Source: Pseudomaricurvus alkylphenolicus
Lineage (GTDB): Bacteria; Pseudomonadota; Gammaproteobacteria; Pseudomonadales; Cellvibrionaceae
Reading direction: 5' to 3'
Length of the DNA stretch: 64,000 nt
Assembly: GCF_011683955.1 (NCBI RefSeq)
Contig: NZ_JAAQPI010000004.1
Location: 372,001 to 436,000 of the forward strand
Part shown: positions 10,747 to 25,497 of the stretch, in pieces
How the letters are laid out: each line of letters begins with the position of its first letter
Position numbering within the stretch: the first letter of the stretch is position 1
The notes under the pieces: generated by a model
Told to the model about the DNA's origin: nothing
What the model saw: the letters and a program-made list of their open reading frames with translations, nothing else
Database searches by the model: none
Made by a program: the position numbers and the translations under genes

Positions 10747-12015
10747 ATGAAAACTCTGCTCCGCTGCGCAATCGCAGCCGCTATCGCACTACCTGCCGCC
10801 GCCATGGCCGGTTCTACCGCCCAGGTTACTTCTGATAACAACGACGGGGCGGGGTCGCTGCGTGCGGCACTGGCCAGCGGTGCCACCCAGATTGTGATCA
10901 ACCCGTCAGTGGGTGTCATCACCGTTACCGAATCCTTGCAGTACACCGGCACAGAGCCTCTGACTCTGATCGGCAGCGGTCAGACTATTGACGGCGCCGG
11001 CATGAGCAACGATCTGGATCCGATTTTTGCGGTTACTCAAGGGGCTGATCTGACCATTAAGCGCCTCAGCTTTACCGGCAGCGGTTCCTATAGCCGTTCA
11101 GACAATCTGAACAATGGCGTTGAGGTCAGTGGCGGCAAAGGCATCTACCTGAACGTCCCCGATACCCGCACCGGCACCGTTAAGGTGAACCTGTCGGGCG
11201 TATCCGTTTTTGACACTGGCAACCATGGCATTCACGTGTCCGACTGCTCGCTGGGCGATGACTGCGGCGGTGGCGGCGGTGGTGCCGGCGATGGTTCTCC
11301 TGCATCCATTGAAGTCAATCTGAATGATGTATTGGTTGACGGTGTTGGCTTCGGTAAGCAAGACGCCGATGGTGTCCGCGTCGATGATCGCAACGACGGC
11401 AACATTGTCTTTAACGTCGTTAATTCCACCTTCCGCAATGTGGGTGCCGACGGCGTCGAGCTTGATGAAGGCAACCAGGGCAGCGTCATCATTAACGTCG
11501 TTAACACCACCTTTGAAGGTAACGGCGCCTATTGTGTAGACGGGCCTTTTGTTGCCGGTGATGCCTGTGACGATGAGGGTGACCCCGATGTGGATGACGG
11601 CTTTGACATCGATGAGGCCGGCCCCGGTGACATTCGTGGCAAGGTGGTTAACACCGAGGTGGTGAACAACTTCGACGAAGGCCTGGACTTCGACGAAGAA
11701 GATGCAGGCGGTTACCGACTGACGCTGTCCAATATCTACGCCGAAAACAATGAAGATGAAGGTGTCAAAATCTCGGAAGAGAACGACGGCGGCATTCGCG
11801 TTGATCTGAAAGTCGTTACGCTGCTCAATAACAATGGCAGCAAAGAAGACATCGAAATCGAGGAAGCCGATGACGGTAACGTGCGGGCCTCGATTATTTC
11901 CTCTACCATTGACGAAGTCAAGGTTGAGGAAGACGGCACCGGTTTTGGTATCTTGAAGATCCGCAGTTCCAATATTGCTGAAGAACTGGATTTGGATAAC
12001 GTTGAGGTTAAATAA
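10747..12015 (+). CDS. Secreted acidic right-handed beta-helix protein of unknown function
   Basis: 422 residues from the ATG at 10747 (GGGGA upstream); an ATG 15 nt earlier is unlikely because the signal peptide MKTLLRCAIAAAIALPAAAMA starts here and should be cut before GS. The mature protein opens with DNNDGAGSLRAAL, a hallmark of secreted parallel beta-helix proteins, and continues with repeats of about 25-35 residues (for example GNIVFNVVNSTFRNVGADGV and GSVIINVVNTTFEGNG). The second half is extremely rich in Asp and Glu (VDDGFDIDEAGPGD, LDFDEEDAGG, VKISEENDGG, EIEEADDGN), suggesting calcium binding. No anchor or catalytic motif is visible. It stands alone, so neighbours give no hint of its role. 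Confidence 0.8.
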   Translation: MKTLLRCAIAAAIALPAAAMAGSTAQVTSDNNDGAGSLRAALASGATQIVINPSVGVITVTESLQYTGTEPLTLIGSGQTIDGAGMSNDLDPIFAVTQGADLTIKRLSFTGSGSYSRSDNLNNGVEVSGGKGIYLNVPDTRTGTVKVNLSGVSVFDTGNHGIHVSDCSLGDDCGGGGGGAGDGSPASIEVNLNDVLVDGVGFGKQDADGVRVDDRNDGNIVFNVVNSTFRNVGADGVELDEGNQGSVIINVVNTTFEGNGAYCVDGPFVAGDACDDEGDPDVDDGFDIDEAGPGDIRGKVVNTEVVNNFDEGLDFDEEDAGGYRLTLSNIYAENNEDEGVKISEENDGGIRVDLKVVTLLNNNGSKEDIEIEEADDGNVRASIISSTIDEVKVEEDGTGFGILKIRSSNIAEELDLDNVEVK

Positions 12016-12038
12016 CCGGTAAACGTCCTCATTAAGAG

Positions 12039-12074
12039 TTCAGGTCCGATAAACTCAGAGAAATCGGACCTGAA
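12039..12074 (+). terminator. Stem-loop downstream of the beta-helix protein gene
   Basis: TTCAGGTCCGAT (12039-12050) and ATCGGACCTGAA (12063-12074) form a perfect 12-bp stem with a 12-nt loop, 24 nt after the stop codon. There is no U-tract, so it is a probable but not classical terminator. It lies in the gap before the convergent iron-sulfur protein gene. Confidence 0.55.
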
Positions 12075-12147
12075 GTAGCGCATTTGGTGCGGGTGGAGAT
12101 GTGTCTTGTTTGCTACCTACGTAGAGAAGAATGAACGTTATCGAAAG

Positions 12148-13146
12148 TCAACCCTGGCTCTCTGATTGTCGTTTTTTCTCTCTGCGTTTGGTGAATTTGT
12201 CCGCGAGCTTTGGTGCCCTGCCCGGTGTCGACCAGGGACACACGCCCAGGCATATTCCACATCCGTAGGTCTCGGCAAAGTAGGAAAAACACTTGTCGAA
12301 GTCCACATACCACTTTTCAACGCCGCGAACGGTCTGCTTCTTGTCTGAAATGGCGTCCACGGGACACGCTTTGGTACAAACCTGACAGGCAGAACAAAAG
12401 TCGTCGGCTGCAAATTCGTCCAAAGCGTCTTCGACCAATGGCATATCGGTAAAGACGGCCGACAAGCGGAACGACGAACCGTGCTCCCGGTTGATGATCG
12501 AACCGTGCTTGCCCAGTTCTCCAAAGCCACACTCAATCGCCGCCGGCGTCAGGGTAATTGGGCCAGCAGAGGGTCCCCCCGACGCTTCTGCCCGCCACCC
12601 CTGGGAGAGAATCCAGTCTTCCACCGGCCTGGCCACCTTCCAGCCCTTGGTATACTTATCGACAACTTCTATCGCCGAGGTCACTTCGGGCGCTGTCAGC
12701 AGTTTGTCGTGCTCCATGACCACACCCAGGACAATTATCCAGGGATAATCGAAGTCGTAACCCTCAAACACCCAGTCAGGATTCGCCCTGGCAATACCCA
12801 CCAACTCGGCACCGGCTTTTCGAGCCAGCTCCTTCACCTTGTTGGACGCGTCCGTTGCCTGCATTTGATTTTGATCACTGGCGATCAATCGCGGTTGCAG
12901 GCCAATCACCTTTTCCCGATCAGCACGCATAGCTGCCAGCTTCGGCTCCTTGACACCCTGAGCCCAGAACCACTTCTGAACATCCCCATGAGCGATTTTT
13001 TCCGGCTCGTGCCACATAACCGGTGTCGGCCGACGCACCTCGGTTTCGCCCAGGCCGTTGATGGTGTTTCCTGAAACATCGGGCCATAACGCGCTTTGTT
13101 CCCCACTGGGCACAAACTCTTCAACAACAGGTTTTCTATTAGACAT
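12148..13146 (-). CDS. Small reductive-dehalogenase-like dicluster iron-sulfur protein
   Basis: 332 residues from the ATG at 13146, which overlaps the stop of the upstream thioesterase (ATGTCTAA). Near the C-terminus two [4Fe-4S] motifs appear: C251, C254, C257, C261 followed by Pro, and C286, C296, C299, C303 followed by Pro. The second has the 9-residue gap typical of reductive dehalogenases and epoxyqueuosine reductase relatives, which reduce substrates with cobalamin. There is no twin-arginine signal and no membrane anchor gene, so it is cytoplasmic and much shorter than respiratory dehalogenases (about 450-500). Function is inferred only at superfamily level; queuosine synthesis is less likely because of the catabolic neighbours. 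Confidence 0.65.
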   Translation of the reverse strand: MSNRKPVVEEFVPSGEQSALWPDVSGNTINGLGETEVRRPTPVMWHEPEKIAHGDVQKWFWAQGVKEPKLAAMRADREKVIGLQPRLIASDQNQMQATDASNKVKELARKAGAELVGIARANPDWVFEGYDFDYPWIIVLGVVMEHDKLLTAPEVTSAIEVVDKYTKGWKVARPVEDWILSQGWRAEASGGPSAGPITLTPAAIECGFGELGKHGSIINREHGSSFRLSAVFTDMPLVEDALDEFAADDFCSACQVCTKACPVDAISDKKQTVRGVEKWYVDFDKCFSYFAETYGCGICLGVCPWSTPGRAPKLADKFTKRREKKRQSESQG

Positions 13147-13561
13147 CAGACTGACTCTCAATATATTCCAGACACTTGCTGCGAATGGCTGCAGGCACTT
13201 CGATGGCCTTGCGTTGTTCGAGATCGAAAGAGAGAACAACTCCGTCCAACGTCGCCACCTTTTCTCCGGTGGCAACATTGCTCATAACATGGCGATAGCG
13301 CAACGATTTGCGACCCACTTCCAGCGGCTGGCTTTCAATTTTCAGCAACGCGCCGTTGGATACTTCTTGCAGGTAACGGATGGTGTGTTCCACGTCCGCC
13401 CAACCCTGGCGGGTTTCCTTGCCGGCCTCCAGCGAGTAACCCAAGTGGTGCATCATATGGGCGCCGGCGTCGTCGAACATCGCCAGATAGTGCCGCGTAT
13501 TCATATGGTGATATTGATCGCAGTGCCAGGGGAACACCACTGCCCGGTTGGTTTCAAACAT
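13139..13561 (-). CDS. 4-hydroxybenzoyl-CoA thioesterase-like acyl-CoA thioesterase
   Basis: 140 residues with a hotdog fold. The signature PWHCDQYHHMNTRHYLAMFD near residue 11 includes the catalytic-type Asp and the HMN motif of the 4HBT family. It hydrolyses an acyl-CoA in the cytoplasm. It starts 3 nt after the stop of the dehydrogenase gene and overlaps the iron-sulfur gene by 8 nt, so the three form an operon. In carnitine degradation a similar thioesterase (CdhB, betainyl-CoA) is paired with carnitine dehydrogenase (CdhA), and this pair matches that layout, but the substrate here is not proven. Confidence 0.75.
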   Translation of the reverse strand: MFETNRAVVFPWHCDQYHHMNTRHYLAMFDDAGAHMMHHLGYSLEAGKETRQGWADVEHTIRYLQEVSNGALLKIESQPLEVGRKSLRYRHVMSNVATGEKVATLDGVVLSFDLEQRKAIEVPAAIRSKCLEYIESQSDV

Positions 13562-13564
13562 GGT

Positions 13565-14479
13565 TTATCCGATCCTGTGCTGTTGTTTCAGGTTCAAGAG
13601 CTGCGTCACCAAGGTGTCGCGGCGCTGTCGTTTGGTTTCGAAATCTTCATCGCGTTCTGCCAGATAATTGGCAATCTCCTGCAATGCCTTGGGTTGCCAC
13701 GGGTTTGCCACCAGCAGTTTTTTGCCCAACTCCACGTAAGAGTCACCAAACTTTTGAGCGTATTCCTCAAATCCATTGGGCGCATTCAGATCCATAGTTT
13801 CAAAGGGGCCAAAAAAGGCCCAGCGTAGGCCGAGGCAATCCTTGAGACATTTGTCTACATCAGCCGGGCTGGCAACGCCCTCGGCGACCAGATTCACGGC
13901 TTCGTTAACAACCGCAGCTTGCAATCGGTTGGCAACAAATCCTTCGATTTCCCGACGCAGCTTGACCACCTGTTGGCCTATGGATTCCAGCAGTGCTGCG
14001 GCTGTGTCGAGTGCATACTCGGATGTTTTTTCACCGGGCACCAGTTCCACCAACGGCAGGAGGTAGCTGGGATTAAACGGGTGTGCCACCAGAAAGCGAG
14101 AAGGGTTGGTCATTGCACTGGCCAAATGCGTGGCTGGAATTGCCGATGTGGAGCTGAGAACCAACCCCTGCGGATCAAACACTTGCTCAATGTCGTTGAG
14201 TACCGACTGTTTTAGCGATAACTGTTCGGGTACCGCCTCAATCACCAGTCGAGCACCACTGACGGCTTTATCGATAGGCTGACTGCCCTCGGCCGCTCCA
14301 CGTTCACGTGCGGAAACCCTGAGCGAGTCGCAAATGGCAAGGCAGGTTTGCGCCGCCGTTTGCGCACGCTCCACATCAATATCAAACAGTCGCACATCCC
14401 AACCCGCGCGACAGAACGACACCGCCCAACCGAGCCCCATGGTGCCAGTGCCAACAATACAAACCGTTGGATTCGTCAA
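13565..14479 (-). CDS. 3-hydroxyacyl-CoA dehydrogenase family enzyme (lambda-crystallin / carnitine dehydrogenase-like)
   Basis: 304 residues from a TTG at 14479 preceded by AGAGAGAG; a TTG 42 nt upstream lies inside a transcription terminator and is rejected. The Rossmann motif GTGTMG is near residue 9, SSTSAIPATHLA and AHPFNPSYLLPLVELVPG hold the catalytic serine/histidine region, and GLRWAFFGPFETMDLNAPNG is characteristic of lambda-crystallin, L-gulonate 3-dehydrogenase and carnitine 3-dehydrogenase rather than of fatty-acid 3-hydroxyacyl-CoA dehydrogenases. It would oxidise a 3-hydroxy acid with NAD+. First gene of a three-gene operon with the thioesterase and the iron-sulfur protein. Confidence 0.78.
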   Translation of the reverse strand: MTNPTVCIVGTGTMGLGWAVSFCRAGWDVRLFDIDVERAQTAAQTCLAICDSLRVSARERGAAEGSQPIDKAVSGARLVIEAVPEQLSLKQSVLNDIEQVFDPQGLVLSSTSAIPATHLASAMTNPSRFLVAHPFNPSYLLPLVELVPGEKTSEYALDTAAALLESIGQQVVKLRREIEGFVANRLQAAVVNEAVNLVAEGVASPADVDKCLKDCLGLRWAFFGPFETMDLNAPNGFEEYAQKFGDSYVELGKKLLVANPWQPKALQEIANYLAERDEDFETKRQRRDTLVTQLLNLKQQHRIG

Positions 14480-14506: not shown

Positions 14507-14549
14507 ACAAAAAACAGACAAGGGCTCTATGTCATAGAGCCCTTGTCTG
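14507..14549 (-). terminator. Strong intrinsic terminator after the uronate operon
   Basis: Two 17-nt arms, CAGACAAGGGCTCTATG and CATAGAGCCCTTGTCTG, are perfect inverse complements around a single central base, and on the minus strand the stem is followed directly by TTTTTTG. It lies 11 nt past the TonB receptor stop codon, closing the eight-gene operon and separating it from the dehydrogenase operon downstream. Confidence 0.9.
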
Positions 14550-14559
14550 GATGGAAAGC

Positions 14560-16803
14560 TCAGAACGTCTTGCGTATGCTCATACCCAGAGTACGAGGGC
14601 GCCCCACCGCAATCAGGTTCAGCGAGTCGGACAACTCTGCCGGATCAGCGAGGTTGGCCCGCTCGTCGGTCAGGTTTTCCACAAAGGCCGACAGATCCCA
14701 GCTGCCCCACTGGATGCCAGCACGCAGGTTGATCAACTCGTAGCGGTCACGGTCATTGCCCTGGGCACTGACACTGGAGCCGACATAGCGATAATCGAAG
14801 CGGGAATAGCCGTCCATCTCCTCGCTGATGGAGAAGTCGTAGTCCAAAGCCAGTGCACCGTTCCAGCGGGGTACATTGGCCAATGCCTGGCCCTCCTCAA
14901 CACCCAGGGCACCGCCGGTATCGGTAATACGCGAGTCGGTGTAACCCACCCCGGCACTGAGACTGAATCCTTCCGTTACCTGTAGCATCAATTCCAGTTC
15001 CGCACCCTTGGATTCCACTTCACCGACGTTGTCGCGGGCTGAAAAGCCCAGGCCGCAATTAATGGTCTGTGCCCGGCGCTCATCCCAGGAAATAAAGTAA
15101 GTGGCCATATTCAAAGTGGCGCGGCCGCCCCACAGACGGGTTTTGGCACCTAGCTCGTAGTTCCAGAGGGAATCGGAGTCGGTAAATTCCGGAATATCCG
15201 TCAAGCCCACGGCTTCACAGGCGGCCTTGGCATCGTTGACGTCTCCAGGGCGGTAACCTTTGGCCACGTTGCTGTAGAGGGTGACTTCGTCGTTGATGTC
15301 CCAGCTGAGTGCAACACGGGGATTAAATCCGTCCTCATCCACCCCGCCTTTAAAGGGCTCGGGAATGGGAAAACCAAAGGCGACACCCAGCTTGGTAAAC
15401 AGTGTGCCGCCGTCAATGCGTTCGTCTTCCGTCGATACGTCAAACCAGCGACCGCCAACGGTCATCGTCAGTGTGTCCGTCAGGCTGTACTCAAATTCAC
15501 CAAACAGCCCCAACTCTTCCTGTTCAAAATGACTTTGCAGCGAGAAGAATGAATCACCGGCTTCGAAACCCGCAAAACCAATAAAGGGCGCTCCGCCGGG
15601 AACAATGGAGGCAGGCGGGAATCCGCCCTCTCGGTCGATCTTCTGATAAAAGACACCAGCCACCATATTCAGTTTACCCTCAAAGTTGGACACAAATCGC
15701 AACTCCTGGGTAATACGCTCTTCATCAGAGGTCTCAAATGTAATAGCAGGTGCGTCGACGGAAGCAACGGCCGGACCGCCCAGGAAGCTCGACATAAAGA
15801 TAGTGCCGTCTTCAATATCCAGGGTTTCCCGCTCAAAGTAAGAGGTACTGGAGACGATTTCACCGTACCCCAGATCATAGTTAATCGTGAGCGCGGCCAG
15901 GCTCCACTCGTCCTCGCCCTCTTCGGTCACATCAAACTGGCGGATCTTGGTAAAGTTGTCGATATCTTCATCCACAAAGGCCGGGCCGTCTGACTCGGTT
16001 TTCTGGTACATCAGCTGCGGCTGCAGCATCAGTTCCTCGCTCACCTGCCAGAACAGGGACGCCTGAAATCCCTGGGTACTGTCTTCGTTGATGTCCTCAT
16101 TGCGATACTCATCGCCGTTCAGCGCATCTTCGCCACCCACAACGGCCGAGCCGTCGGGGTCGACGATTCGATCAATAAAACCGGCATCCCTCAGGTAATA
16201 ACCCGTCAGACGCAGTGCCACATTCTCTGCCAGCGGCAAATTTACCGAACCGTCCACGCGATAATCGAGACCGCCCCCTTCCATGCTGCCCACGGCCGCG
16301 TGCAGCTTGCCCTCAACCTCATCGGTGGAGGGCTTTTTGGTCACCATGCGCACCAGACCGCCCATGGAGCGGGCGCCAAACAGGGTGCCCTGCGGACCCC
16401 GCAGAACTTCCACCCGTTCAACGTCGATAACCCGAGGGTCCATGGTCGTGGGGACGGCAGTTTCGTCAATATAGAGGGCCGAGGTGTCATCACCGGTAAT
16501 ACCCCTCAGTTGAAACTTCCTCGACGTCTGACGCCCCTCGCCACTGTAACCAAAACTCAGATTGGGGACGGAGGTGGCGTAGTCCGCAAATTCTGCGGCG
16601 CCCGATCGTTCCAGCTCCACCTCGCCGATAGCCGTCACCGACAGGGAAATATCCTGCAGCGACTGCTCCCGCTTGGTGGCGGTAACCACTACCTCTTCCA
16701 GCTCCAGAGCCGTGTCGGCCAAGCCGTACTGCGGTGCCAGTGATATGCCCAGCGCCAGTAAACCGGCGCCCGACAGGCGATGTATTTTGAATTTATCGTT
16801 CAT
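14560..16803 (-). CDS. TonB-dependent outer-membrane receptor (uronate operon)
   Basis: 747 residues with a signal peptide (cleavage likely after YGLADT region, about residue 31), a TonB box/plug start LEEVVVTATKREQSLQDI, plug motifs ALYIDETAVPT and VEVLRGPQGTLFGARSMGG, and a beta-barrel ending in an aromatic residue (GMSIRKTF). Such receptors take up large substrates across the outer membrane with energy from TonB. GAGGGTAAAG precedes the ATG. As the last gene of the operon with an iduronidase-like enzyme and a TRAP transporter, it most likely imports uronate-containing oligosaccharides. No SusD partner is present, as expected for Proteobacteria. Confidence 0.9.
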   Translation of the reverse strand: MNDKFKIHRLSGAGLLALGISLAPQYGLADTALELEEVVVTATKREQSLQDISLSVTAIGEVELERSGAAEFADYATSVPNLSFGYSGEGRQTSRKFQLRGITGDDTSALYIDETAVPTTMDPRVIDVERVEVLRGPQGTLFGARSMGGLVRMVTKKPSTDEVEGKLHAAVGSMEGGGLDYRVDGSVNLPLAENVALRLTGYYLRDAGFIDRIVDPDGSAVVGGEDALNGDEYRNEDINEDSTQGFQASLFWQVSEELMLQPQLMYQKTESDGPAFVDEDIDNFTKIRQFDVTEEGEDEWSLAALTINYDLGYGEIVSSTSYFERETLDIEDGTIFMSSFLGGPAVASVDAPAITFETSDEERITQELRFVSNFEGKLNMVAGVFYQKIDREGGFPPASIVPGGAPFIGFAGFEAGDSFFSLQSHFEQEELGLFGEFEYSLTDTLTMTVGGRWFDVSTEDERIDGGTLFTKLGVAFGFPIPEPFKGGVDEDGFNPRVALSWDINDEVTLYSNVAKGYRPGDVNDAKAACEAVGLTDIPEFTDSDSLWNYELGAKTRLWGGRATLNMATYFISWDERRAQTINCGLGFSARDNVGEVESKGAELELMLQVTEGFSLSAGVGYTDSRITDTGGALGVEEGQALANVPRWNGALALDYDFSISEEMDGYSRFDYRYVGSSVSAQGNDRDRYELINLRAGIQWGSWDLSAFVENLTDERANLADPAELSDSLNLIAVGRPRTLGMSIRKTF

Positions 16804-16841
16804 CTCTTTACCCTCTATGACTCAATTATAGTTGCCTGGCC

Positions 16842-18803
16842 CTATAGCGTGACCACTGAAGAAAACTCACCCTTGTTGCCCCAAAAGTCCACGGCCCGCA
16901 CCTTGTATTGACCGCCGCGTTTGGCATTGGCGTGCACCCAGCTTCGGTCCAGCAAGGTGGCTCGGCTGAGTTGTTTAAACTCACTGGAACCCGGCCTGGC
17001 GTAATGCACTTCATAGTGGATCAGTCCGGATTCGTTGGTGGACTTCCAGTCCAGCACCGCGGTGCTTTCACCGTGAATGCCAAGATGAACGGTTCTCGAT
17101 AAAGCGGTTATGTCTCCAGGACCTGTCTTCGGCGCGGAACTCAAGACAATCAGACTCACCGACGCTGATGGCAGATCAACATCCAGTTGCAACGCGCCAT
17201 TGTCGATCGCCACTTTGCGGTCCGTCCTGAAAGAAGGCTCCTGCGCTTCCACCAGCTTTTGCAACTGTTTCGCGGAGGGGTCCTCGGGCGAACCCATTTT
17301 CTTCCAGAGTTCGTAGGCGTTGCCGTCTTTGTTGTCGAGACGCAACTCGGCCAGGATCGGATTTTCCAGGTTCAGGCCGGCCAGATTCAGTCTTACCTTG
17401 CCGCTTTGACGCTTCCAGACATTACGCTGCTTTTTGCTGGGTTCCATCTGTTCCTGCAAGCCATTATTGAGGGACATTTCCGGCTTGTTATAGCAGAGCA
17501 ATGCCACCGCCTGATCCAGGCGCCTGGTGGCCATACAACCGATATTGGGGTTGTCGGAGACATAGCGATCGACCAGCTGGCGATACTCGGGAAAACCCTC
17601 CACCGGATAACGCTGTGGCCCCAGAAAATCCAGCAGCGACATCACTGATTGAACCGGTTTTTTGATCAAAAAGAACTGCTGGGTCTCCGGGCGGGTATCG
17701 GTTTTATCGCTTTGCCCAAACGGCTTCCAGCCGCCCTCGTCGCCACTGCCTTTTTGCGGTGTGCTATTGTCGCCTCTCAGAAACCGGGCGTATTGGGTAC
17801 GCTGCCCCCAGGTACCGGAAAAGCCGTGATCGTTGCTCAGCAGTTTGTAATCCACACCCAACTTGTCGATCATGACTTGATTGTGGGCATCAATGGATTG
17901 CGCAAAAAAGGCCGCGTGCCAGGCACCGGCGCGCCACCAGTAAGGTACGCCCCAACCACCGATGGGATCGGCCTCATCGTTGACAAACGGAATGGTTTTT
18001 AAATTCGGGTGATGCTTGCGAATGTAGTCGACCTTCCACTCTTCCAGGCGCACCATGGACCAGGGCGTGGCCTTGTAATGGGACGAGAGAAACTCCGGCG
18101 CGGTTTTGCCCGGCTGGTCCACATGCTCAAGGGTCATCTTCAGCAGCGGTGACATAAACCGGCCATTGGCCGGGCCACCGAGATTGAGGCTGGCGTCCAC
18201 CTTGCGCATGCCACGGTTGGTCGCATCAAAGTAACGCAGATAGTCGGCGGCGCCGTGCTCCCAGAACGGATGAATATCGGCTTCGTTGGTGGTTTCGAAC
18301 ATCCACTGGCGAATTTCTTCGGAGCCGTAGCGATCCACCAGATGCCGTGTCACGTCCTCTACAAAAGTCTCCCAGAGAGCGACCTGCTGCTCCGTTTTGT
18401 AGCCCTGAAAGTACGCCGATGGATTACCCATCCATTCGAACACCAAGTGAATGCCATTATGGACAATATTGTCCAGTGCCTTGTCAAAGCGAGCCCAGTC
18501 GTAGCGGATTTGCGTTCCTTCGCCACCGGTAATTTCGATCAGGTCGAGAATATAGTGCGGCCGGAAAAACTCGGTGCCACCACGGGTTGCCCCCATGTGC
18601 TTGAGGGAAATTTCCATGTCTTTGGTCAACAGCAAATCCGAGGGAGACAAGCCGCTGGATTTCCAGTAGGGCTCGAAGGGCACAGACGGTGCAGAAAAGT
18701 CCACCGACACTTTATAGTGGTTGTCGGCCAATGAAGCAGCAGCTCCCATCATCAGCAGCGCCATCAGGCTGCGTTTCAGAGCTTTTGGAAACAGTTTATT
18801 CAT
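16842..18803 (-). CDS. GH39 glycoside hydrolase, alpha-L-iduronidase-like
   Basis: 653 residues with an N-terminal signal peptide (cut near AASLA-DN), so probably periplasmic. The TIM barrel has the acid/base Glu174 in FETTNEAD and the nucleophile Glu277 in FVNDEADPIGGW, which closely matches the NDEADP-GW nucleophile segment of human alpha-L-iduronidase. The C-terminal segment YKVRAVDFWGNKGEFS matches the fibronectin-like tail of the same enzyme (YRVRALDYW). Other GH39 enzymes are beta-xylosidases, but these two features point to iduronidase. Start ATG overlaps the gluconokinase stop (ATGA). It would release terminal L-iduronic acid from oligosaccharides. Confidence 0.82.
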   Translation of the reverse strand: MNKLFPKALKRSLMALLMMGAAASLADNHYKVSVDFSAPSVPFEPYWKSSGLSPSDLLLTKDMEISLKHMGATRGGTEFFRPHYILDLIEITGGEGTQIRYDWARFDKALDNIVHNGIHLVFEWMGNPSAYFQGYKTEQQVALWETFVEDVTRHLVDRYGSEEIRQWMFETTNEADIHPFWEHGAADYLRYFDATNRGMRKVDASLNLGGPANGRFMSPLLKMTLEHVDQPGKTAPEFLSSHYKATPWSMVRLEEWKVDYIRKHHPNLKTIPFVNDEADPIGGWGVPYWWRAGAWHAAFFAQSIDAHNQVMIDKLGVDYKLLSNDHGFSGTWGQRTQYARFLRGDNSTPQKGSGDEGGWKPFGQSDKTDTRPETQQFFLIKKPVQSVMSLLDFLGPQRYPVEGFPEYRQLVDRYVSDNPNIGCMATRRLDQAVALLCYNKPEMSLNNGLQEQMEPSKKQRNVWKRQSGKVRLNLAGLNLENPILAELRLDNKDGNAYELWKKMGSPEDPSAKQLQKLVEAQEPSFRTDRKVAIDNGALQLDVDLPSASVSLIVLSSAPKTGPGDITALSRTVHLGIHGESTAVLDWKSTNESGLIHYEVHYARPGSSEFKQLSRATLLDRSWVHANAKRGGQYKVRAVDFWGNKGEFSSVVTL

Positions 18804-19327
18804 GAACGTTCTTTCTCCTCAACCAAATTCAGTTTGTACTCGCAAAAAGCTATCTGATCTTCCAATGCCCACTCCGCGTCAATCCTGATGACGTCAGCCT
18901 CACCGACGGGGCATTCCAGCGTCTCAAACTGTGAGCGGATCAGTGACTTGGGCATAAAGTGATCCTGTCGGTTCTGGCATCGCTGGTGCGCACGAGTTTC
19001 GATAATGTCCAAATAAAGAAATTGCGGCGGTGCTATCAAACGCCGCCGAAATTGATCCCGATAGCGCTTCTTCAATGCGGAGCACGACAGCACCACTGAC
19101 TCCTTTGCATTCAGGAAACGATTACACTGCAAGCACAACGCCTGCAGCCACTCCTTTCTGTCTTCATCATCAAGGGCGATGCCCCGCTGCATTTTGTTCA
19201 CGTTGGCGGGCGGATGAAATTCGTCGCCCTCAACAAAGGGCAGCTCAAACCTCGACGAAAACGCCCGCGCCAGTGTTGACTTGCCACAGGAGGAAACCCC
19301 CATCACAATAAGCGGCCTGTTGATCAT
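18800..19327 (-). CDS. gntK: Gluconokinase, GntK/IdnK family
   Basis: 175 residues, the family size. The P-loop GVSSCGKST starts at residue 11, followed by the substrate-side segment VEGDEFHPPANVNKM and the later CSALKKRYRDQFR, both conserved in gluconate kinases. It phosphorylates D-gluconate to 6-phosphogluconate for the Entner-Doudoroff or pentose phosphate pathway. It overlaps the TRAP large permease gene and the GH39 gene by 4 nt each. In this operon it would complete the conversion of a 5-keto-gluconate made from a uronic acid. Confidence 0.92.
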   Translation of the reverse strand: MINRPLIVMGVSSCGKSTLARAFSSRFELPFVEGDEFHPPANVNKMQRGIALDDEDRKEWLQALCLQCNRFLNAKESVVLSCSALKKRYRDQFRRRLIAPPQFLYLDIIETRAHQRCQNRQDHFMPKSLIRSQFETLECPVGEADVIRIDAEWALEDQIAFCEYKLNLVEEKERS

Positions 19328-20616
19328 CCGGCCACCATCCTCGACGGCAACCAGGTCACCAGCTCCGGCACAAACATCAGCAGTATCAACACAGCCATCA
19401 ACGTCAACACAAAAGGAATACTGTATAAAATGGTTTCACTGGAAGAAGCCTCCGCGATGCTGCCGGTAATAAACATCAATACCGCTACGGGTGGCGTGAT
19501 GGCGCCGATTTGCGTCGCGATCACCACCAGCACGCCAAGATGCAAGGGGTCAAACCCATAGGCCTGCCCCAAATGTGCGAGAACCGGCACAAACAGAATC
19601 AATACCGCCAGCGATTCAAGAAACATGGTCATCAGCAACATGCCTCCGACCAGTACCATCAATACGGTTTGCGGATGCTGGGAAAGCAACTGGATTTTCT
19701 CCAACGCCAGCAGGTGAAATTCCATAAACGACAGCAGCCAGCCGATGGAACCGGCCATGGCAATAATGCCCACCACAGTTGCAGTGGTGAGTCCGGCATC
19801 CACCACGATTCTCGGCAAGTCGCTCGAAGTGATGGAGCGGTAATAGTAACGAGACGTCAAGTAGGCATAGAGACAGGTCACCACGCCTGCTTCCGTAGCG
19901 GTAAACAGCCCGGAGAAAATGCCACCAATAATCAGGACCGGCGCCAGCAGGGCCACCCAGGAGCGTCGCACATGCTGCAGCAGGGCGCGAAACCCTTGCC
20001 AGGGTTCGCGATGCGCCAGTGCCGGGAAGGCCGGCAGGTAGGACATTAAAAAGATCAGAGCGATCAACGCCGTCGCCATGATCAGCCCTGGCACCACACC
20101 GGCCAAAAACAGACCACCAATTGAAACCCCCGTCATCGATCCGTAGATGATCATAGTCATGCTGGGGGGAATTACCGGACCAATGGTGGCTGCCGCCGCA
20201 ACGATAGACGCGGCCAATCCCGGCTGATAATTTTCGGCTTTCATGGCGGGGATGGTGACGGAACCAATGGCGGCAGCTTCTGCGGCAGAGGAGCCGGAAA
20301 CATTGGCCATGGAAACGCAGGAGACAACCGACGCATTACCGAGGCCACCACGCCAGTGGCCAAACAACCCTTTGCCCATGGCCACCAGCGCCTCACTCAA
20401 ACCGCCTTTGGACATGAGTGAACCCGCCAGAATAAAGTACGGCAACGCCAACAGACTGAACGAATCCAATGACGAAAACGAGCGCTGGGCAAAAAACGCG
20501 GGAGTGACATCCTGTGTGGAGAACATGCCCACCAATCCCACCAGGGCCAGCGCCAAAATCACCGGAATACGTAATAACACCAGCGCGATCAGCAGTACAA
20601 ACAGCAAGGCAATCAC
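19324..20616 (-). CDS. dctM: TRAP transporter large permease, DctM family
   Basis: 430 residues, almost wholly hydrophobic with about 12 predicted helices, beginning MIALLFVLLIALVLLRIPVI. Conserved DctM segments such as LPYFILAGSLMSKGG, SGSSAAEAAAIGSVTIPAM and IPPSMTMIIYG are present. It forms the ion-coupled channel of a tripartite ATP-independent periplasmic transporter with the DctQ gene directly upstream (ATGA overlap) and the DctP solute-binding protein at the head of the operon. The likely cargo is a sugar acid such as a uronate, judged from the enzymes encoded around it. Confidence 0.93.
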   Translation of the reverse strand: MIALLFVLLIALVLLRIPVILALALVGLVGMFSTQDVTPAFFAQRSFSSLDSFSLLALPYFILAGSLMSKGGLSEALVAMGKGLFGHWRGGLGNASVVSCVSMANVSGSSAAEAAAIGSVTIPAMKAENYQPGLAASIVAAAATIGPVIPPSMTMIIYGSMTGVSIGGLFLAGVVPGLIMATALIALIFLMSYLPAFPALAHREPWQGFRALLQHVRRSWVALLAPVLIIGGIFSGLFTATEAGVVTCLYAYLTSRYYYRSITSSDLPRIVVDAGLTTATVVGIIAMAGSIGWLLSFMEFHLLALEKIQLLSQHPQTVLMVLVGGMLLMTMFLESLAVLILFVPVLAHLGQAYGFDPLHLGVLVVIATQIGAITPPVAVLMFITGSIAEASSSETILYSIPFVLTLMAVLILLMFVPELVTWLPSRMVAG

Positions 20617-21092
20617 GATTCGCCACCCTCAGGGTCAATCAGATTTTGCAGCGCAAACAACATCAGGACCATACCTCCGCTGATCTGGCAGAGATAAATC
20701 CAGGCCATTTTCACACCCAGGCCGGCGCTGTATTGATGCTGTCCGACAGCCACTAATTTGCCGCCCAGAACAACCAGGGCCAAAGCCAACACCAGCCACA
20801 GCGCATGAGTGCAGGTTTCCAGCCCCGCCCCCAAACGCCCCTGCTCCAAGCGGCTGAATAATTTCACGCAGATATGACGGCGATGACGATAGGCGAGTGG
20901 AATGGCCAGGAACACCAGCCAAATGTGCAGGTAACGCTGCAACTCTTCTGTCCAGCTCATAGAAGGAACCGGCAGATACCGATTGACTATCTGCAACAAC
21001 CCAACCAACACCATGACCAGAAATAACGTGGTCACCACATGCTGGACCCAATGGGCCGTTGTACTTGCCAGTTTGCCGAACATCACGCTCAC
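20613..21092 (-). CDS. dctQ: TRAP transporter small permease, DctQ family
   Basis: 159 residues with four hydrophobic helices (about 17-38, 50-66, 88-112, 128-150) and the family segment SWTEELQRYLHIWLVFLAIPLAYR, which marks the second helix. DctQ binds DctM and is needed for transport. The gene starts 6 nt after the SDR stop and overlaps dctM by 4 nt. Confidence 0.9.
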   Translation of the reverse strand: MSVMFGKLASTTAHWVQHVVTTLFLVMVLVGLLQIVNRYLPVPSMSWTEELQRYLHIWLVFLAIPLAYRHRRHICVKLFSRLEQGRLGAGLETCTHALWLVLALALVVLGGKLVAVGQHQYSAGLGVKMAWIYLCQISGGMVLMLFALQNLIDPEGGES

Positions 21093-21098
21093 CTTCGC

Positions 21099-21890
21099 CT
21101 AGACCACGGCGGTCATGCCACCATCCACATACATAACTTGACCGGTAATAAAACTGGAAGCCTCTGAAGCCAGCATCACCGCCATGCCCTGTAATTCTTC
21201 CACTCGCCCCCAGCGATTGGCGGGCGTGCGCTGGCAGAGCCACCGACTGAACTCCTCGTCGTCCACCAGTGCACGAGTAAGCTCCGTATTGAAGTACCCG
21301 GGGGCGATGGCGTTGACCTGGATATTGTCGGCTGACCACTCCGCGCACATCGAACGCGTGAGCATGACCATCGCCCCCTTGGACGAGGCATAGGGAGCAA
21401 TCGACGGTCTTGCCAGCGAAGACTGAACGGAACCGATATTGATAATCTTGCCCCGCTGGCGAGAAATCATGCCGCGAGCCACGGTTCTGCCCACCAGAAA
21501 CGCCGAGGTCAGGTTGGTGTTCAGTACTTCTTGCCAGGTCGACAGCTCGACATCGGTCAATGGCACGCGACGTTGCATACCGGCGTTGTTAATCAGTATA
21601 TCTATCGGACCCAGGCTGCTTTCAATGCGCTGGATGGATTCTTCCACCGCCACTTCATCAGTCACATCGAAACACTCAGTCTCCATCGATAGGCCCAGAT
21701 CATGCAGCTGCCGCCGTGCCACACCCAATTGCTCCTCGTTGCGCCCGTTTAGCACAACCAGAGCACCTGCCTCCGCCAATGCCCGGGCGAGACTCAATCC
21801 AATACCGCGGGACGAACCGGTCACCAGCGCAATTTTTCCGTCGAGACTAAAGCGCTGCAGAATATTGCCCTTTGTCGAAACCTCACTCAT
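21099..21890 (-). CDS. SDR oxidoreductase, gluconate 5-dehydrogenase-like
   Basis: 263 residues of the classical short-chain dehydrogenase family: TGSSRGIG nucleotide loop at about 25, NNAGMQRR, catalytic Ser in IGSVQSSLA, and Tyr/Lys in YASSKGA, ending with GQVMYVDGGMTAVV. The overall pattern (FSLDGKIALVTGSSRGIGL, NNAGMQRRVPL, WQEVLNTNLTSAF) is that of gluconate 5-dehydrogenase (IdnO) and 2-deoxy-gluconate 3-dehydrogenase (KduD). IdnO reduces 5-keto-D-gluconate to D-gluconate, which fits the gluconokinase in the same operon better than KduD, whose product would need a KDG kinase. Confidence 0.82.
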   Translation of the reverse strand: MSEVSTKGNILQRFSLDGKIALVTGSSRGIGLSLARALAEAGALVVLNGRNEEQLGVARRQLHDLGLSMETECFDVTDEVAVEESIQRIESSLGPIDILINNAGMQRRVPLTDVELSTWQEVLNTNLTSAFLVGRTVARGMISRQRGKIINIGSVQSSLARPSIAPYASSKGAMVMLTRSMCAEWSADNIQVNAIAPGYFNTELTRALVDDEEFSRWLCQRTPANRWGRVEELQGMAVMLASEASSFITGQVMYVDGGMTAVV

Positions 21891-21908
21891 GACAAAACCC
21901 CTCGCCGC

Positions 21909-22751
21909 TTACTTAAATTTATCGCGCATGGCACCGAGGCCCGGAATGGAGTCCATCAGGTAGTCGTTGCGCTCGTGAAAATGCTGCAACAGAGAACGCT
22001 GTTGCCGTCCCACCAGAATGGTAAAGATATACTCTTTGTGTCCGGGGGAGGTGACGGTGGGATGGTATCCGCCTTCTATCAATACCGTGTCGCCGTCGCC
22101 GGTTTTGTACACCGTGCCCTTGCTGTCGTCGTCATAAACAAACTGGCCGCCAAATCCGGTGTTGGGTTCAAAACGGTAGTGATACACCTCCTCGTGGTGA
22201 CTCTCACCCTCGCGGTCTTCGTCGTGTTTGTGGGGTGGATACCCGGACCAGCAACCTTCGTCTGCATAAAGCTCACTGACCAGCAGGTTGCCGGCGCGAC
22301 CAGCCGCGTTCTGGCCCAGAATATGAAAGATGCAGCGGCGGGAGTGGGTACCTTGAGAGCCCACGTCGACCATGTCCACTTCGCTTGGTGTGATTCGAAA
22401 AGGTTGATATACCTCCGTGCACAAACCACCGGCCACGGCCACTTCACAACTTTCACTGACGCATCTCAGACTGACGCTTGCCCCCACCGGGGCGTAAACC
22501 GAATCCGCCGTGCCGGACCAAACGTCCTCCCGGCCACCGACAGCGACAAAGGTCTCGTCATTGATCACAATATCCACCTTGCCGGACATCAGAACGTAAA
22601 CGGTTTCATAGTCCTGCAGACAGGCACGATACTGTTGTCCTTGTGTTAACCGGACTCGATTAAAGTAGGTCCGCTTCAGACAGGAATCATCCCGCGCCGC
22701 ATCAACGACAGGTTCGTTGTGATTATCGGCGTTGTAAATAATCTCACTCAT
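21909..22751 (-). CDS. IolB family sugar-acid isomerase (5-deoxy-glucuronate isomerase-like)
   Basis: 280 residues with a bicupin fold. IolB motifs are clear: SGYPPHKHDEDR and EEVYHYRFEPNTGFG carry metal-binding histidines and glutamate, and EGGYHP supplies another. IolB normally converts 5-deoxy-glucuronate to 2-deoxy-5-keto-gluconate in inositol degradation, but no other inositol genes are here. Instead it sits between a TRAP binding protein (ATGA overlap) and a gluconate 5-dehydrogenase. The same aldose-ketose isomerisation on L-iduronate would give 5-keto-D-gluconate, so I propose it acts as a uronate isomerase. This substrate is inference. Confidence 0.82.
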   Translation of the reverse strand: MSEIIYNADNHNEPVVDAARDDSCLKRTYFNRVRLTQGQQYRACLQDYETVYVLMSGKVDIVINDETFVAVGGREDVWSGTADSVYAPVGASVSLRCVSESCEVAVAGGLCTEVYQPFRITPSEVDMVDVGSQGTHSRRCIFHILGQNAAGRAGNLLVSELYADEGCWSGYPPHKHDEDREGESHHEEVYHYRFEPNTGFGGQFVYDDDSKGTVYKTGDGDTVLIEGGYHPTVTSPGHKEYIFTILVGRQQRSLLQHFHERNDYLMDSIPGLGAMRDKFK

Positions 22752-23767
22752 ATTTCGACTTCACTGGTAGGAGTAACTGCACCGATGGCCTCGATGAGGT
22801 CACTGGCGTGGTATTTTTCTGCAAACAACTTGTGGACTCCGACTGCGGTGCCCACAAATTCACGGGTATCCAGTTCCCGCACCGTCATGCCTTGGCGTTG
22901 CAGCGCTGCGATTGCCTGCTGTTCCTTAATGGGTGCCTGCTGCCGCACAAAGGTGGCGGCATCCTTTGCAGCGGCAAGCAGCAATTGTCTCTGTGGCTCG
23001 CTCAGCTGCTGCCACTTGTCCCGGGAGCAAACCATCACAATGGGACCAAACAGATGATTGGTGCGGATCAGATAGTCCGTCACTTCGTAGAATCGGTTTG
23101 AGAGCACGGTTGAGGGTGTGTGCTCAAAACCGTCGATCACACCATTTTCCAGTGAGGTATAGATTTCACCGAAGGCCATGGGCGTCGGGTTTACACCCAT
23201 GGTTTGCATCGCCAGAATGTAACTGGGCGCAGGGATGGTTCTCAGCTTCAACCCCTTTAACTCCTCCGGCTCGCGCACATCTTTGGAGGTGGTGACCACG
23301 TTGCGTCGGCCCCAGCTGTCCATCCATGCCAGCACTTCGAAGCCCGCCTTTCGCAGCTCCTCGCGCAGCTGGTCACCGACCGCGCCGTCCAGTGCCCGGT
23401 GAATGTGATCGTAGTCGCGCCACAAAAACGGCAGATCCAGCGCTCCCAGCCGAGGATTGAAGTTCGCCAGAATCGCAGTGCCGGAGATCGAACAGGCGGC
23501 CCCCGCTCCCAACTGCATCCCCTCGTAGACCTCGCGCTCCTGTCCGAGGCTGTTATTGGCGTAGACCCGCACCTTGATATCGTCGGAACGGCTTTCGACA
23601 TACTCGGCAACCCGGCTGGCGGCAACGTGAATCTCGGAATCGTCACGGGCCTGGTGGCTGTGAGAAATACGAATAACCGTTTGTTGTGTGTTGCCCTGGA
23701 GCCCGCCGATCACCCCATCACAACCCAACAACGCCAGACACATAAACACGCAGTACAAACATTTCAT
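22748..23767 (-). CDS. dctP: TRAP transporter solute-binding protein, DctP family (lipoprotein)
   Basis: 339 residues. The N-terminus has a lipoprotein signal ending LALLGC-D (Cys about 16), so the binding protein is tethered in the periplasm. DctP signatures are the RDDSEIHVAASRVAEYVE start, GLKLRTIPAPSYILAMQTMGVNPTP-type core (arginine for substrate carboxylate), and YTSLENGVIDGFEHTP. First gene of the eight-gene operon; the stop overlaps the isomerase start. The ATG lies only about 8 nt downstream of a probable -10 box, so the transcript may be nearly leaderless or an internal ATG (residue 9) may be used. Substrate is most likely a uronic acid. Confidence 0.9.
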   Translation of the reverse strand: MKCLYCVFMCLALLGCDGVIGGLQGNTQQTVIRISHSHQARDDSEIHVAASRVAEYVESRSDDIKVRVYANNSLGQEREVYEGMQLGAGAACSISGTAILANFNPRLGALDLPFLWRDYDHIHRALDGAVGDQLREELRKAGFEVLAWMDSWGRRNVVTTSKDVREPEELKGLKLRTIPAPSYILAMQTMGVNPTPMAFGEIYTSLENGVIDGFEHTPSTVLSNRFYEVTDYLIRTNHLFGPIVMVCSRDKWQQLSEPQRQLLLAAAKDAATFVRQQAPIKEQQAIAALQRQGMTVRELDTREFVGTAVGVHKLFAEKYHASDLIEAIGAVTPTSEVEI

Positions 23768-23774
23768 GCTGTTG

Positions 23775-23803
23775 ACTTTATGTGATCACAAATCTAAAGT
23801 CAA
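23775..23803 (-). promoter_or_regulatory. Promoter with TGTGATCACA operator for the uronate operon
   Basis: On the minus strand, -35 TTGACT (23798-23803) and -10 TAAAGT (23775-23780) are 17 bp apart, and the 10-bp perfect palindrome TGTGATCACA (23781-23790) fills the spacer next to the -10 box. A bound repressor there would block RNA polymerase. The same palindrome recurs at the aminotransferase operon promoter and, in variant form, next to a GntR gene at 49.2 kb. Confidence 0.65.
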
Positions 23804-23847
23804 ATATCTAAAATCAATAGACTGGCATTCTCCATCTATATTTGAAC

Positions 23848-23880
23848 GACGGTATATATAGAAGGCTGTATATAACCGTC
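23848..23880. repeat. AT-rich inverted repeat upstream of the metallohydrolase gene
   Basis: GACGGTATATATAG (23848-23861) and CTGTATATAACCGTC (23866-23880) pair over 6 bp GC-containing ends plus the TATATA core, with one offset base. It lies 24 bp before the start of the plus-strand gene, so it may be an operator or a leader hairpin. It also supplies TATATA boxes that could act as -10 elements. Confidence 0.45.
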
Positions 23881-23904
23881 CGCTACAAACCCAGGAAGAT
23901 TTCT

Positions 23905-25497
23905 ATGTTATCTGCGCCCTTGATAAACCCCCTGCCACTCGCCAAAACCATGGCAGCAGCTTTGATCCTGTTTGGTGCCTCTGTCACCGAGGCACACCAG
24001 AGCAGCCTGCACCGGTCTATGGTCAAGCTAAGCGCCGATGAGTCCTCCACTCCCCGCAGTGCGCCTGCCAAGCAAACCAGATCACTCAGTCTCGACTTCA
24101 TAGACGCCGAGACCGGCCAGCCGATGGCGGCTACGGTCAGAATTACTGACCTGGTTTCCGGTAAAAAGTGGTGGCCCAAAGACTGGACCCGATCTCACGC
24201 CATGCGCCGCATGCAAGACTGGTGGAGCCTGGCCAGCGGCACGGCGCTGGAGTTGCCCAATGGCGAAGTTGAAATTGAGGCCATTGGCGGCCTGACCATA
24301 AAACTGAATCACTTTTACCGGCCCCAACAACAACACTGGTGGGGTGGCAATACTCACCTGCATATGTTCTCGGTATCGCGGGGCTATGCGGACCGCTATC
24401 TGCAGGTTGTGCCAAGGGCCGATGGTCTGGATACGGTTTACGTCTCTCACCTGGAACGGGTGAAGGTGGATGAAACCTATGTGTCCAACCAATACTCTGC
24501 CACCGATATGCAGGAGCTGAGCAACAGTGTCATCAGTTATGGCTACGGGCAGGAGACCCGACACAACTTCGGCGAGTACGGCCAGGGATATGGGCATGCC
24601 CTGTTGCTGGATATTCCCAAGTTGATTCAACCGGTCAGCATCGGCCAGTCACTGACGGCAAAGGGCGCTGACTACCCGCCGCTGGCACCGAGCTTGCGCG
24701 CTGCCGACAAAGCCGGTGGCACCGTGGTGTGGGCGCACAATGATTTTGGCATGGAGGATATTCCCAACTGGCTTAATGGACGTATTCACGCGCTTAACTC
24801 CTTTGACGGCGGTGATCGCACCCACTACGAGCAGAGCTTTTATCGCTACCTCGACGTCGGTCTGAGGGTGCCTTTTTCGTCCGGTACTGACTGGTTTATG
24901 TTGGACTTTGCACGCGCTTACGTTTATGGCAGACACAAACCCGACGCCGAAGGCTGGTTAAAGGCCCTGCGCCAGGGACGCTCTTATATCACCAATGGTC
25001 CGTTGCTGGAATTCAGCGCCAACGAAAAAATGATTGGCGACACCCTCAACATCGACAGTGAAACGTCCAAGGTCAGCATCTCAGCAAAAGCCTTGGGACG
25101 AACTGACTTTAAAAAGCTCGAATTGATTTTTAACGGCGACGTGGTGTATTCGGTTGCTTCAGAAGCCCTGAACGGCCACTTTCAAGCAACAATGAATTAT
25201 GACTTTGTCGCCGACAGCTCCGGATGGCTGGCGGTAAGGATTCCCTGGCACAACAACAAAAACGAAATGGGTGAAGTCCTTCGCGCCCATACCAGCCCCA
25301 TTTATCTGCAAGTGGATGGCAAAGCACATTTCAAGCCGTGGGTTGCGCGAGGCTTGGTCGCCGAAATGCGCGACAGCATTGACCGCATTACACACGAGGG
25401 CGAGTTCGAGTCCCCCACACAGCGAGCCAGCGTAATCAAAGTTTATCAGCGAGCGATTCAGCAGTTGGACGAAAAAATTTCAGCATTGCATGACTGA
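23905..25497 (+). CDS. CehA/McbA family exported metallohydrolase (PHP-like domain)
   Basis: 530 residues from the ATG at 23905, which follows AGGAAG at 7 nt; an in-frame ATG 63 nt upstream lacks a ribosome site and would bury the signal peptide (LAKTMAAALILFGASVTEA). The central domain opens with WWGGNTHLHMF, the HxH metal motif of PHP-type amidohydrolases, and continues with VVWAHNDFGMED and FSSGTDWFM, further metal or substrate residues. CehA and McbA hydrolyse aryl carbamates, but most family members have unknown substrates. A sandwich domain follows (about 370-470). It is divergent from the uronate operon and cotranscribed with a Tat-exported PLP enzyme. Confidence 0.75.
   Translation: MLSAPLINPLPLAKTMAAALILFGASVTEAHQSSLHRSMVKLSADESSTPRSAPAKQTRSLSLDFIDAETGQPMAATVRITDLVSGKKWWPKDWTRSHAMRRMQDWWSLASGTALELPNGEVEIEAIGGLTIKLNHFYRPQQQHWWGGNTHLHMFSVSRGYADRYLQVVPRADGLDTVYVSHLERVKVDETYVSNQYSATDMQELSNSVISYGYGQETRHNFGEYGQGYGHALLLDIPKLIQPVSIGQSLTAKGADYPPLAPSLRAADKAGGTVVWAHNDFGMEDIPNWLNGRIHALNSFDGGDRTHYEQSFYRYLDVGLRVPFSSGTDWFMLDFARAYVYGRHKPDAEGWLKALRQGRSYITNGPLLEFSANEKMIGDTLNIDSETSKVSISAKALGRTDFKKLELIFNGDVVYSVASEALNGHFQATMNYDFVADSSGWLAVRIPWHNNKNEMGEVLRAHTSPIYLQVDGKAHFKPWVARGLVAEMRDSIDRITHEGEFESPTQRASVIKVYQRAIQQLDEKISALHD

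Follow-up and report, generated by a model that had tools for sequence, protein, structure and literature searches.

A 64,000-nucleotide stretch of the Pseudomaricurvus alkylphenolicus genome (contig NZ_JAAQPI010000004.1, positions 372,001 to 436,000 of the forward strand; hereafter the window) contains an eight-gene operon that probably encodes the catabolism of L-iduronate via 5-keto-D-gluconate and D-gluconate to 6-phosphogluconate, with substrates, reactions and compartments predicted from genome sequences. A TonB-dependent receptor would take an iduronate-ended oligosaccharide into the periplasm, an exported alpha-L-iduronidase of glycoside hydrolase family 39 (GH39) would free L-iduronate, and a tripartite ATP-independent periplasmic (TRAP) transporter would import it. 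An IolB-like enzyme would convert L-iduronate to 5-keto-D-gluconate (aldehyde C1 to ketone C2), in effect carrying out the IolB reaction with a substrate that bears an additional hydroxyl group; a short-chain dehydrogenase/reductase (SDR) would reduce 5-keto-D-gluconate to D-gluconate, the gluconokinase GntK would phosphorylate D-gluconate to 6-phosphogluconate, and Edd, encoded elsewhere, could feed this product into the Entner-Doudoroff route. D-gluconate is placed as the intermediate because the operon contains a gluconokinase, which argues against reduction of the ketose to L-idonate, an option that was set aside. An earlier note on this DNA had joined the four enzymes into a route from L-iduronoside to 6-phosphogluconate, and gene content, conserved residues and co-occurrence in other genomes support that route at the genomic level. 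In the best-supported reading the isomerase is its new element.

In the open reading frame (ORF) tables of the window, all eight genes lie on the minus strand and span 23767 to 14560. In gene order, with assignments from Pfam and NCBIfam and followed by the two flanking elements, they are:

22748..23767, minus strand: DctP, TRAP solute-binding protein (PF03480, E 4e-70; the closest solved chains, e.g. 4pdh, are also TRAP DctP proteins)
21909..22751, minus strand: IolB-like isomerase, proposed L-iduronate isomerase (PF04962, E 1.8e-68; TIGR04378, 162 of 205 bits; clade A; H174, H176, E188, H230)
21099..21890, minus strand: SDR, proposed 5-keto-D-gluconate reductase (NF005711, 354 of 413 bits; NF005983, 324 of 408 bits; 5u9p, E 5e-91)
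20613..21092, minus strand: DctQ, TRAP small permease (PF04290)
19324..20616, minus strand: DctM, TRAP large permease (PF06808)
18800..19327, minus strand: GntK, gluconokinase (TIGR01313, 166 bits; cut-off 114)
16842..18803, minus strand: GH39, alpha-L-iduronidase type (PF01229, E 3.6e-52; PF21200, 27.3 bits; 5ndx and human alpha-L-iduronidase, IDUA; nine of nine IDUA positions)
14560..16803, minus strand: TonB-dependent receptor (PF00593, PF07715)
23772..23803, no strand: perfect inverted repeat TTGACTTTA-14-TAAAGTCAA, 5' of the first gene, putative operator
14515..14549, minus strand: terminator-like stem of 16 pairs with a T tail (terminator-like scan)

Four junctions are 4-nt overlaps (22748-22751, 20613-20616, 19324-19327 and 18800-18803), as the earlier note had read them, and the remaining three are gaps of 18, 6 and 38 nt. 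A perfect 9-bp inverted repeat such as that at 23772-23803, which is overlapped by promoter-like hexamers on the minus strand, was matched in 0 of 100 shuffles. The terminator-like scan returned 17 sites, compared with 10.2 in shuffles, and the stem at 14549-14515 is the only one with more than 12 pairs. The inverted repeat and the 16-pair stem likely delimit one transcription unit, with the same limits as proposed earlier. The operon is not set apart by its G+C content (55.7%, compared with 54.7% for the window). By inspection only, the N terminus of DctP resembles a lipoprotein signal and that of GH39 an export signal. The families first named for the TRAP transporter, GntK, GH39 and the TonB receptor held, whereas the isomerase and the SDR are placed as relatives of theirs, below the equivalog cut-offs.

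GH39 is predicted to hydrolyse alpha-L-iduronides. Among solved structures it matches 5ndx (E 1.4e-76) and human IDUA (E 4.2e-55) best, with beta-xylosidases following only from E 3e-21, and the iduronidase C-terminal domain PF21200 is recognised at 27.3 bits (cut-off 27). The chain 5ndx aligns over the full 620 residues of the Rhizobium johnstonii 3841 GH39 and departs from it at few positions, among them the acid/base position, where the chain has a glutamine; this chain, titled 'Glycosyl hydrolase', was reportedly studied as a bacterial iduronidase. The NDEADP segment of the operon enzyme aligns with the nucleophile segment of human IDUA, so that both this segment and the iduronidase C-terminal tail, as originally pointed out, are confirmed by the comparisons with IDUA and PF21200. 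All nine human IDUA positions mapped through the printed alignment (H91, N181, E182, K264, E299, G305, W306, D349 and R363) have the same residue in GH39; H91 and E182 presumably also have roles in the active site. N181, K264, E299, G305, W306, D349 and R363 are given as ligand contacts of IDUA, and N181 and E299 as contacts of the C2 hydroxyl of an iduronate-like ligand (PMC6343074).

Among the 16 hexuronates, computed isomerisation leads to 5-keto-D-gluconate only from L-iduronate and L-guluronate, and D-glucuronate gives 5-keto-D-mannonate; the products derived earlier for L-iduronate and D-glucuronate were thus correct, and L-guluronate had been overlooked. L-iduronate differs from the IolB substrate 5-deoxy-D-glucuronate solely in its C5 hydroxyl. 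As the C2 epimer yielding the same ketose, L-guluronate fits the stereochemistry equally well, and the operon could serve L-guluronate, alone or together with L-iduronate, with GH39 acting as an alpha-L-guluronidase on alginate fragments. We regard this as unlikely: GH39 retains N181 and E299, the contacts of the ligand's C2 hydroxyl in IDUA (PMC6343074), the solved proteins closest to it are 5ndx and human iduronidase, and no alginate gene was seen within the operon, the rest of the genome not having been searched for such genes. Iduronate is favoured over guluronate as the substrate because GH39 is of the iduronidase type.

The isomerase belongs to the KduI/IolB superfamily by its match to PF04962 (E 1.8e-68) and by conserved residues. 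In a maximum-likelihood tree of 68 different sequences it forms, with 12 others, its own clade (clade A, support 98/98) beside inositol-type IolBs; the remaining groups are a sister clade B of 35 sequences, whose own support is weak (61/41), 16 canonical IolBs (clade C) and four divergent sequences (group D). Long branches (window, L114, L115 and L026), which the tree program flags, make the order within clade A unsure, and a match of less than 200 aa from Phyllobacterium sp. A18/5-2 (L131) was left out. Within each of clades A, B and C, at least 90% of the sequences have H174, H176, E188 and H230, which we take to be the metal ligands. Clade A is told apart from clade B by eleven positions; V130, S137, C167, Y171, D221, H238, I242 and L265 are identical in all 13 clade A sequences, and I242 replaces a tyrosine found in 35/35 B, 16/16 C and 4/4 D sequences. 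A predicted structure of the isomerase, made from a 13-row alignment (window plus 12 loci, L023 left out), was discarded because of its mean predicted local distance difference test score of 52, with most of residues 164-280 below 50.

By family, the SDR likely reduces 5-keto-D-gluconate, an assignment that the profile models do not certify. Its best solved chain, 5u9p, is named gluconate 5-dehydrogenase (E 5e-91); it scores 354 of 413 bits on the general SDR subfamily NF005711, below the cut-off, and 231 and 222 bits on KduD models. The SDRs linked to three other clade A isomerases are 55-58% identical to it, and all four resemble one another closely. GntK exceeds the cut-off of the gluconokinase family TIGR01313 (166 bits over 114) and stays below those of the equivalog models NF007336 and NF008583.

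Relatives of the isomerase are scattered. Full-length plasmid matches reach about 53-57% identity in Rhizobium, Shinella and Phyllobacterium, with one partial match at 61%; the next steps are about 42-44% (Photobacterium, marine alphaproteobacteria) and then at most 36%, mostly annotated iolB. Among 394 genomes of the Rhizobiaceae, the family of genome G434, 43 contain a match at E 1e-50, seven of them at E 1.6e-84 or better, followed by a gap to 2.4e-73. At phylum level, 17 of 398 genomes matched at E 1e-40, with only the host and G434 above the gap, and at class level 7 of 369 matched at E 1e-50, with the host alone above it. Gene neighbourhoods were taken for 15 of the 16 other genomes of the phylum set (G570 left out), all six of the class set, 15 of 44 Rhizobiaceae matches (all seven of clade A and eight of clade B) and a handful of plasmid matches. 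They span 5.6-25.9 kb, and "not nearby" below means not within such a stretch; the counts are not independent, since Rhizobium contributes five closely related rows to the 13 of clade A.

IolC-like and class II aldolase genes accompany 35/35 clade B loci and 0/13 clade A loci. The latter contain an iduronidase-type GH39 in seven cases, an SDR in four and GntK in two. In five Rhizobium-type loci, an ABC transporter, the isomerase and GH39 occur together, and four of these five also contain TIM barrel, 2-hydroxyacid dehydrogenase and 'mandelate racemase' genes. On two Rhizobium plasmids (L025 and L031) these three genes follow the isomerase-GH39 pair, which suggests another downstream branch; the product annotated as 'mandelate racemase' has 473 aa and no Pfam match at E 1e-5. 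The Shinella locus (L026) encodes DctP, the isomerase, DctQ, DctM, an SDR (58%) and GntK (42%), adjoins a GntR/FCD regulator gene and lacks GH39 in the 25 kb examined. In genome G1149 (L114), an ABC transporter, the isomerase, GH39 and an SDR (55%) in 4-nt overlap are found, with a sulfatase nearby whose best solved matches are glycosaminoglycan-type sulfatases, and in G956 (L115) the isomerase accompanies a distant TRAP transporter, a 2-hydroxyacid dehydrogenase and an SDR (58%). Across the clade A settings, both GH39 and the SDR are thus linked to the isomerase in more than one arrangement; the window has both sets. A search of genomes for the isomerase, SDR, GntK, GH39 and TRAP genes, which the earlier note had proposed, thus returned the same pieces joined elsewhere in other orders, with clade A free of IolC-like and aldolase genes.

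The converse search with a Rhizobium GH39 in the 394 Rhizobiaceae genomes (E 1e-40) gave four matches. Three are full length, and each adjoins a clade A isomerase. The fourth (L138; G446:C55, about 11946-13983) is a remnant in which fragments of a solute-binding protein and GH39 abut; the permeases and the isomerase were not found at that locus. We consider it fairly likely that clade A comprises L-iduronate isomerases derived within the IolB family, which mark an undescribed route for free L-iduronate in scattered bacteria with a TRAP or ABC transporter paired with an iduronidase and at least two downstream branches, one with SDR and gluconokinase (window, Shinella) and one with a 2-hydroxyacid dehydrogenase and further enzymes (Rhizobium).

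In clade B loci such as L028, L029 and L062-L074, a second IolB-type protein comes with an IolC-like kinase and a class II aldolase of its own, and some records (L029, L120) also have a canonical IolB. This second protein possibly serves another inositol isomer.

Searched for PF04962, GH39, IolD, UxaC, Edd and UxuA, the host genome (8.88 Mb, 99.6% complete) encodes a single PF04962 protein, the operon isomerase, and a single GH39. No protein exceeds the IolD cut-off; the 16 that fall short of it match as related thiamine enzymes, the best with 206 of 715 bits. For UxaC there is no match to PF02614. Edd is encoded outside the operon (1042 bits). Since the PF04962 protein is the only one and no IolD exceeds the cut-off, the isomerase does not serve a complete inositol pathway, and a complete inositol pathway lacking its own IolB, which the earlier note had named as refuting its proposal, was not found in this nearly complete genome. 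Among 195 genomes of host relatives, the isomerase matched in nine, namely the host and eight at just 28-33% identity, and GH39 in eight, namely the host and seven with short matches (31-34%, frames of 524-547 aa). Neither the isomerase nor an iduronidase-type GH39 was found in any of five congeners, one of which is only 87% complete. The congeners sampled have genomes of 4.0-5.7 Mb. The larger host genome and the absence of both genes from the five congeners suggest that the operon was gained by transfer, although its G+C content is not different.

Several observations weigh against L-iduronate catabolism as the function of the operon. Both key enzymes fall below their equivalog cut-offs: the isomerase scores 162 of 205 bits on the IolB model TIGR04378 (other clade A members 157-174 bits, one clade B member 145 bits) and the SDR 324 of 408 bits on the gluconate 5-dehydrogenase model NF005983, where none of the four clade A-linked SDRs (324, 284, 301 and 343 bits) is over the cut-off; the SDRs of related loci match NF005711 best, and three exceed its cut-off. 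The ketose shared by L-guluronate and L-iduronate means that stereochemistry alone is not decisive. GH39 is not nearby in 6/13 clade A loci, and 4/7 Rhizobiaceae genomes with a clade A isomerase have no GH39 match at E 1e-40, in small numbers. The Rhizobium loci combine the isomerase-GH39 pair with no SDR or GntK homologue, and in the Phyllobacterium-type loci (L110, L111, L113 and L130) the isomerase follows an ABC transporter without GH39, SDR or GntK. In L111, the only one of the latter scanned, the isomerase gene comes after a UxuA-like gene, with a KdgD gene nearby. This setting points to another uronate as the substrate there; a single substrate for the whole of clade A is therefore disfavoured, and the substrate may vary across the clade. 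Finally, the host encodes UxuA about 220 kb from the operon.

The UxuA genes bear on a second explanation, in which the isomerase replaces UxaC and converts D-glucuronate to D-fructuronate, the SDR forms D-mannonate, and UxuA acts elsewhere as dehydratase. A host without UxaC but with UxuA, and the UxuA-like gene 5' of the isomerase in L111, would fit. This is nonetheless quite improbable, as the host UxuA lies among aldehyde dehydrogenase, aminotransferase and CN-hydrolase genes with no other recognised uronate genes, and as the operon has an iduronidase-type GH39 and a gluconokinase that would be superfluous for that route. Very unlikely is a KduI/KduD-type pair acting on unsaturated uronates from polysaccharide lyases. 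KduI shares PF04962 and the SDR reaches 231 and 222 bits on KduD models, but it scores higher on gluconate 5-dehydrogenase (324 bits), the NCBIfam IolB model matched the isomerase whereas no KduI model did so at E 0.001, and none of the eight operon genes encodes a lyase, an unsaturated glucuronyl hydrolase or a 2-keto-3-deoxygluconate (KDG) kinase, the rest of the genome not having been searched for these. That the isomerase is simply an IolB acting on inositol or an inositol-like compound, as family membership and the inositol-type clusters of the sister clade might suggest, is highly improbable given the lack of IolD over the cut-off in the host, the absence of IolC-like and aldolase genes from all 13 clade A loci and the presence in G1149 of both a clade A isomerase (L114) and a clade B one (L127), whose settings differ.

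The proposed L-iduronate route resembles several known systems in part. The myo-inositol enzyme IolB (PF04962, TIGR04378) is of the same family, has H174, H176, E188 and H230 in common with the operon isomerase and would catalyse the same type of reaction; the operon isomerase differs in its score below the equivalog cut-off, its separate clade, the lack of an IolC, IolD or aldolase partner and the C5 hydroxyl of its proposed substrate. Like the UxaC-UxuB-UxuA route for D-glucuronate, the operon would isomerise a uronate, reduce a ketohexonate and lead into the Entner-Doudoroff route, but its isomerase is of a family unrelated to UxaC, which is absent from the host, and it would use gluconate and GntK rather than mannonate, UxuA and KDG kinase. 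Escherichia coli metabolises L-idonate and 5-keto-D-gluconate with IdnO and IdnK or GntK. This route shares the last two steps, from 5-keto-D-gluconate to D-gluconate and 6-phosphogluconate, whereas in the operon 5-keto-D-gluconate would arise from uronate isomerisation and not from L-idonate oxidation. The cluster on plasmid pRL10 of R. johnstonii 3841 (L031) likewise has a clade A isomerase adjoining an iduronidase-type GH39, here one closely matching 5ndx, and differs in its ABC transporter, in lacking SDR and GntK homologues and in the genes that lie downstream, which encode a TIM barrel protein, a 2-hydroxyacid dehydrogenase and a 'mandelate racemase'. Human IDUA shares nine of nine mapped active-site positions and the C-terminal domain with the operon GH39; unlike the latter, it is lysosomal. 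The fungal D-glucuronate pathway has a different substrate and proceeds via L-gulonate, 2-keto-L-gulonate and L-idonate with no isomerase, sharing 5-keto-D-gluconate and D-gluconate with the proposed route, according to a 2019 review (PMC6353982).

L-iduronate is a main component of ulvan (PMC6353982) and of dermatan sulfate and heparin (PMC9067506). A 2011 paper calls the metabolic fate of L-iduronate in the human context unknown, no human pathway being known that would take free iduronate further (PMC3224382), and the 2019 review states that the microbial reactions catabolising L-iduronate are not clear (PMC6353982). In line with the earlier statement that no bacterial route of this kind was known, no description of such an L-iduronate route was found in open-access papers, most subscription papers being outside this coverage. 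The operon thus points to candidate enzymes for L-iduronate catabolism. If the proposal is true, the annotation '5-deoxy-glucuronate isomerase' on many Rhizobium plasmids would be corrected, and a genomic marker for iduronate use would become available.

Pfam assignments of the operon's neighbours in the window cover ORFs from about 200 aa upwards. Two metallohydrolases of the CehA/McbA family are encoded at 23842-25497 (plus strand) and 26816-28972 (minus strand); the first is transcribed away from the operon, with the inverted repeat between the two. A cluster at 28786-49120 looks like amino acid or peptide catabolism and contains a DgcA-type racemase, two beta-lactamase-family proteins, an S15 peptidase, an amino acid permease, BKACE, GntR regulators and another TonB receptor. 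On the other side of the operon, a 376-aa protein with a C-terminal 4Fe-4S domain (12148-13278, minus strand) is weakly similar to reductive dehalogenase (94 of 160 bits) and QueG (59 of 200 bits).

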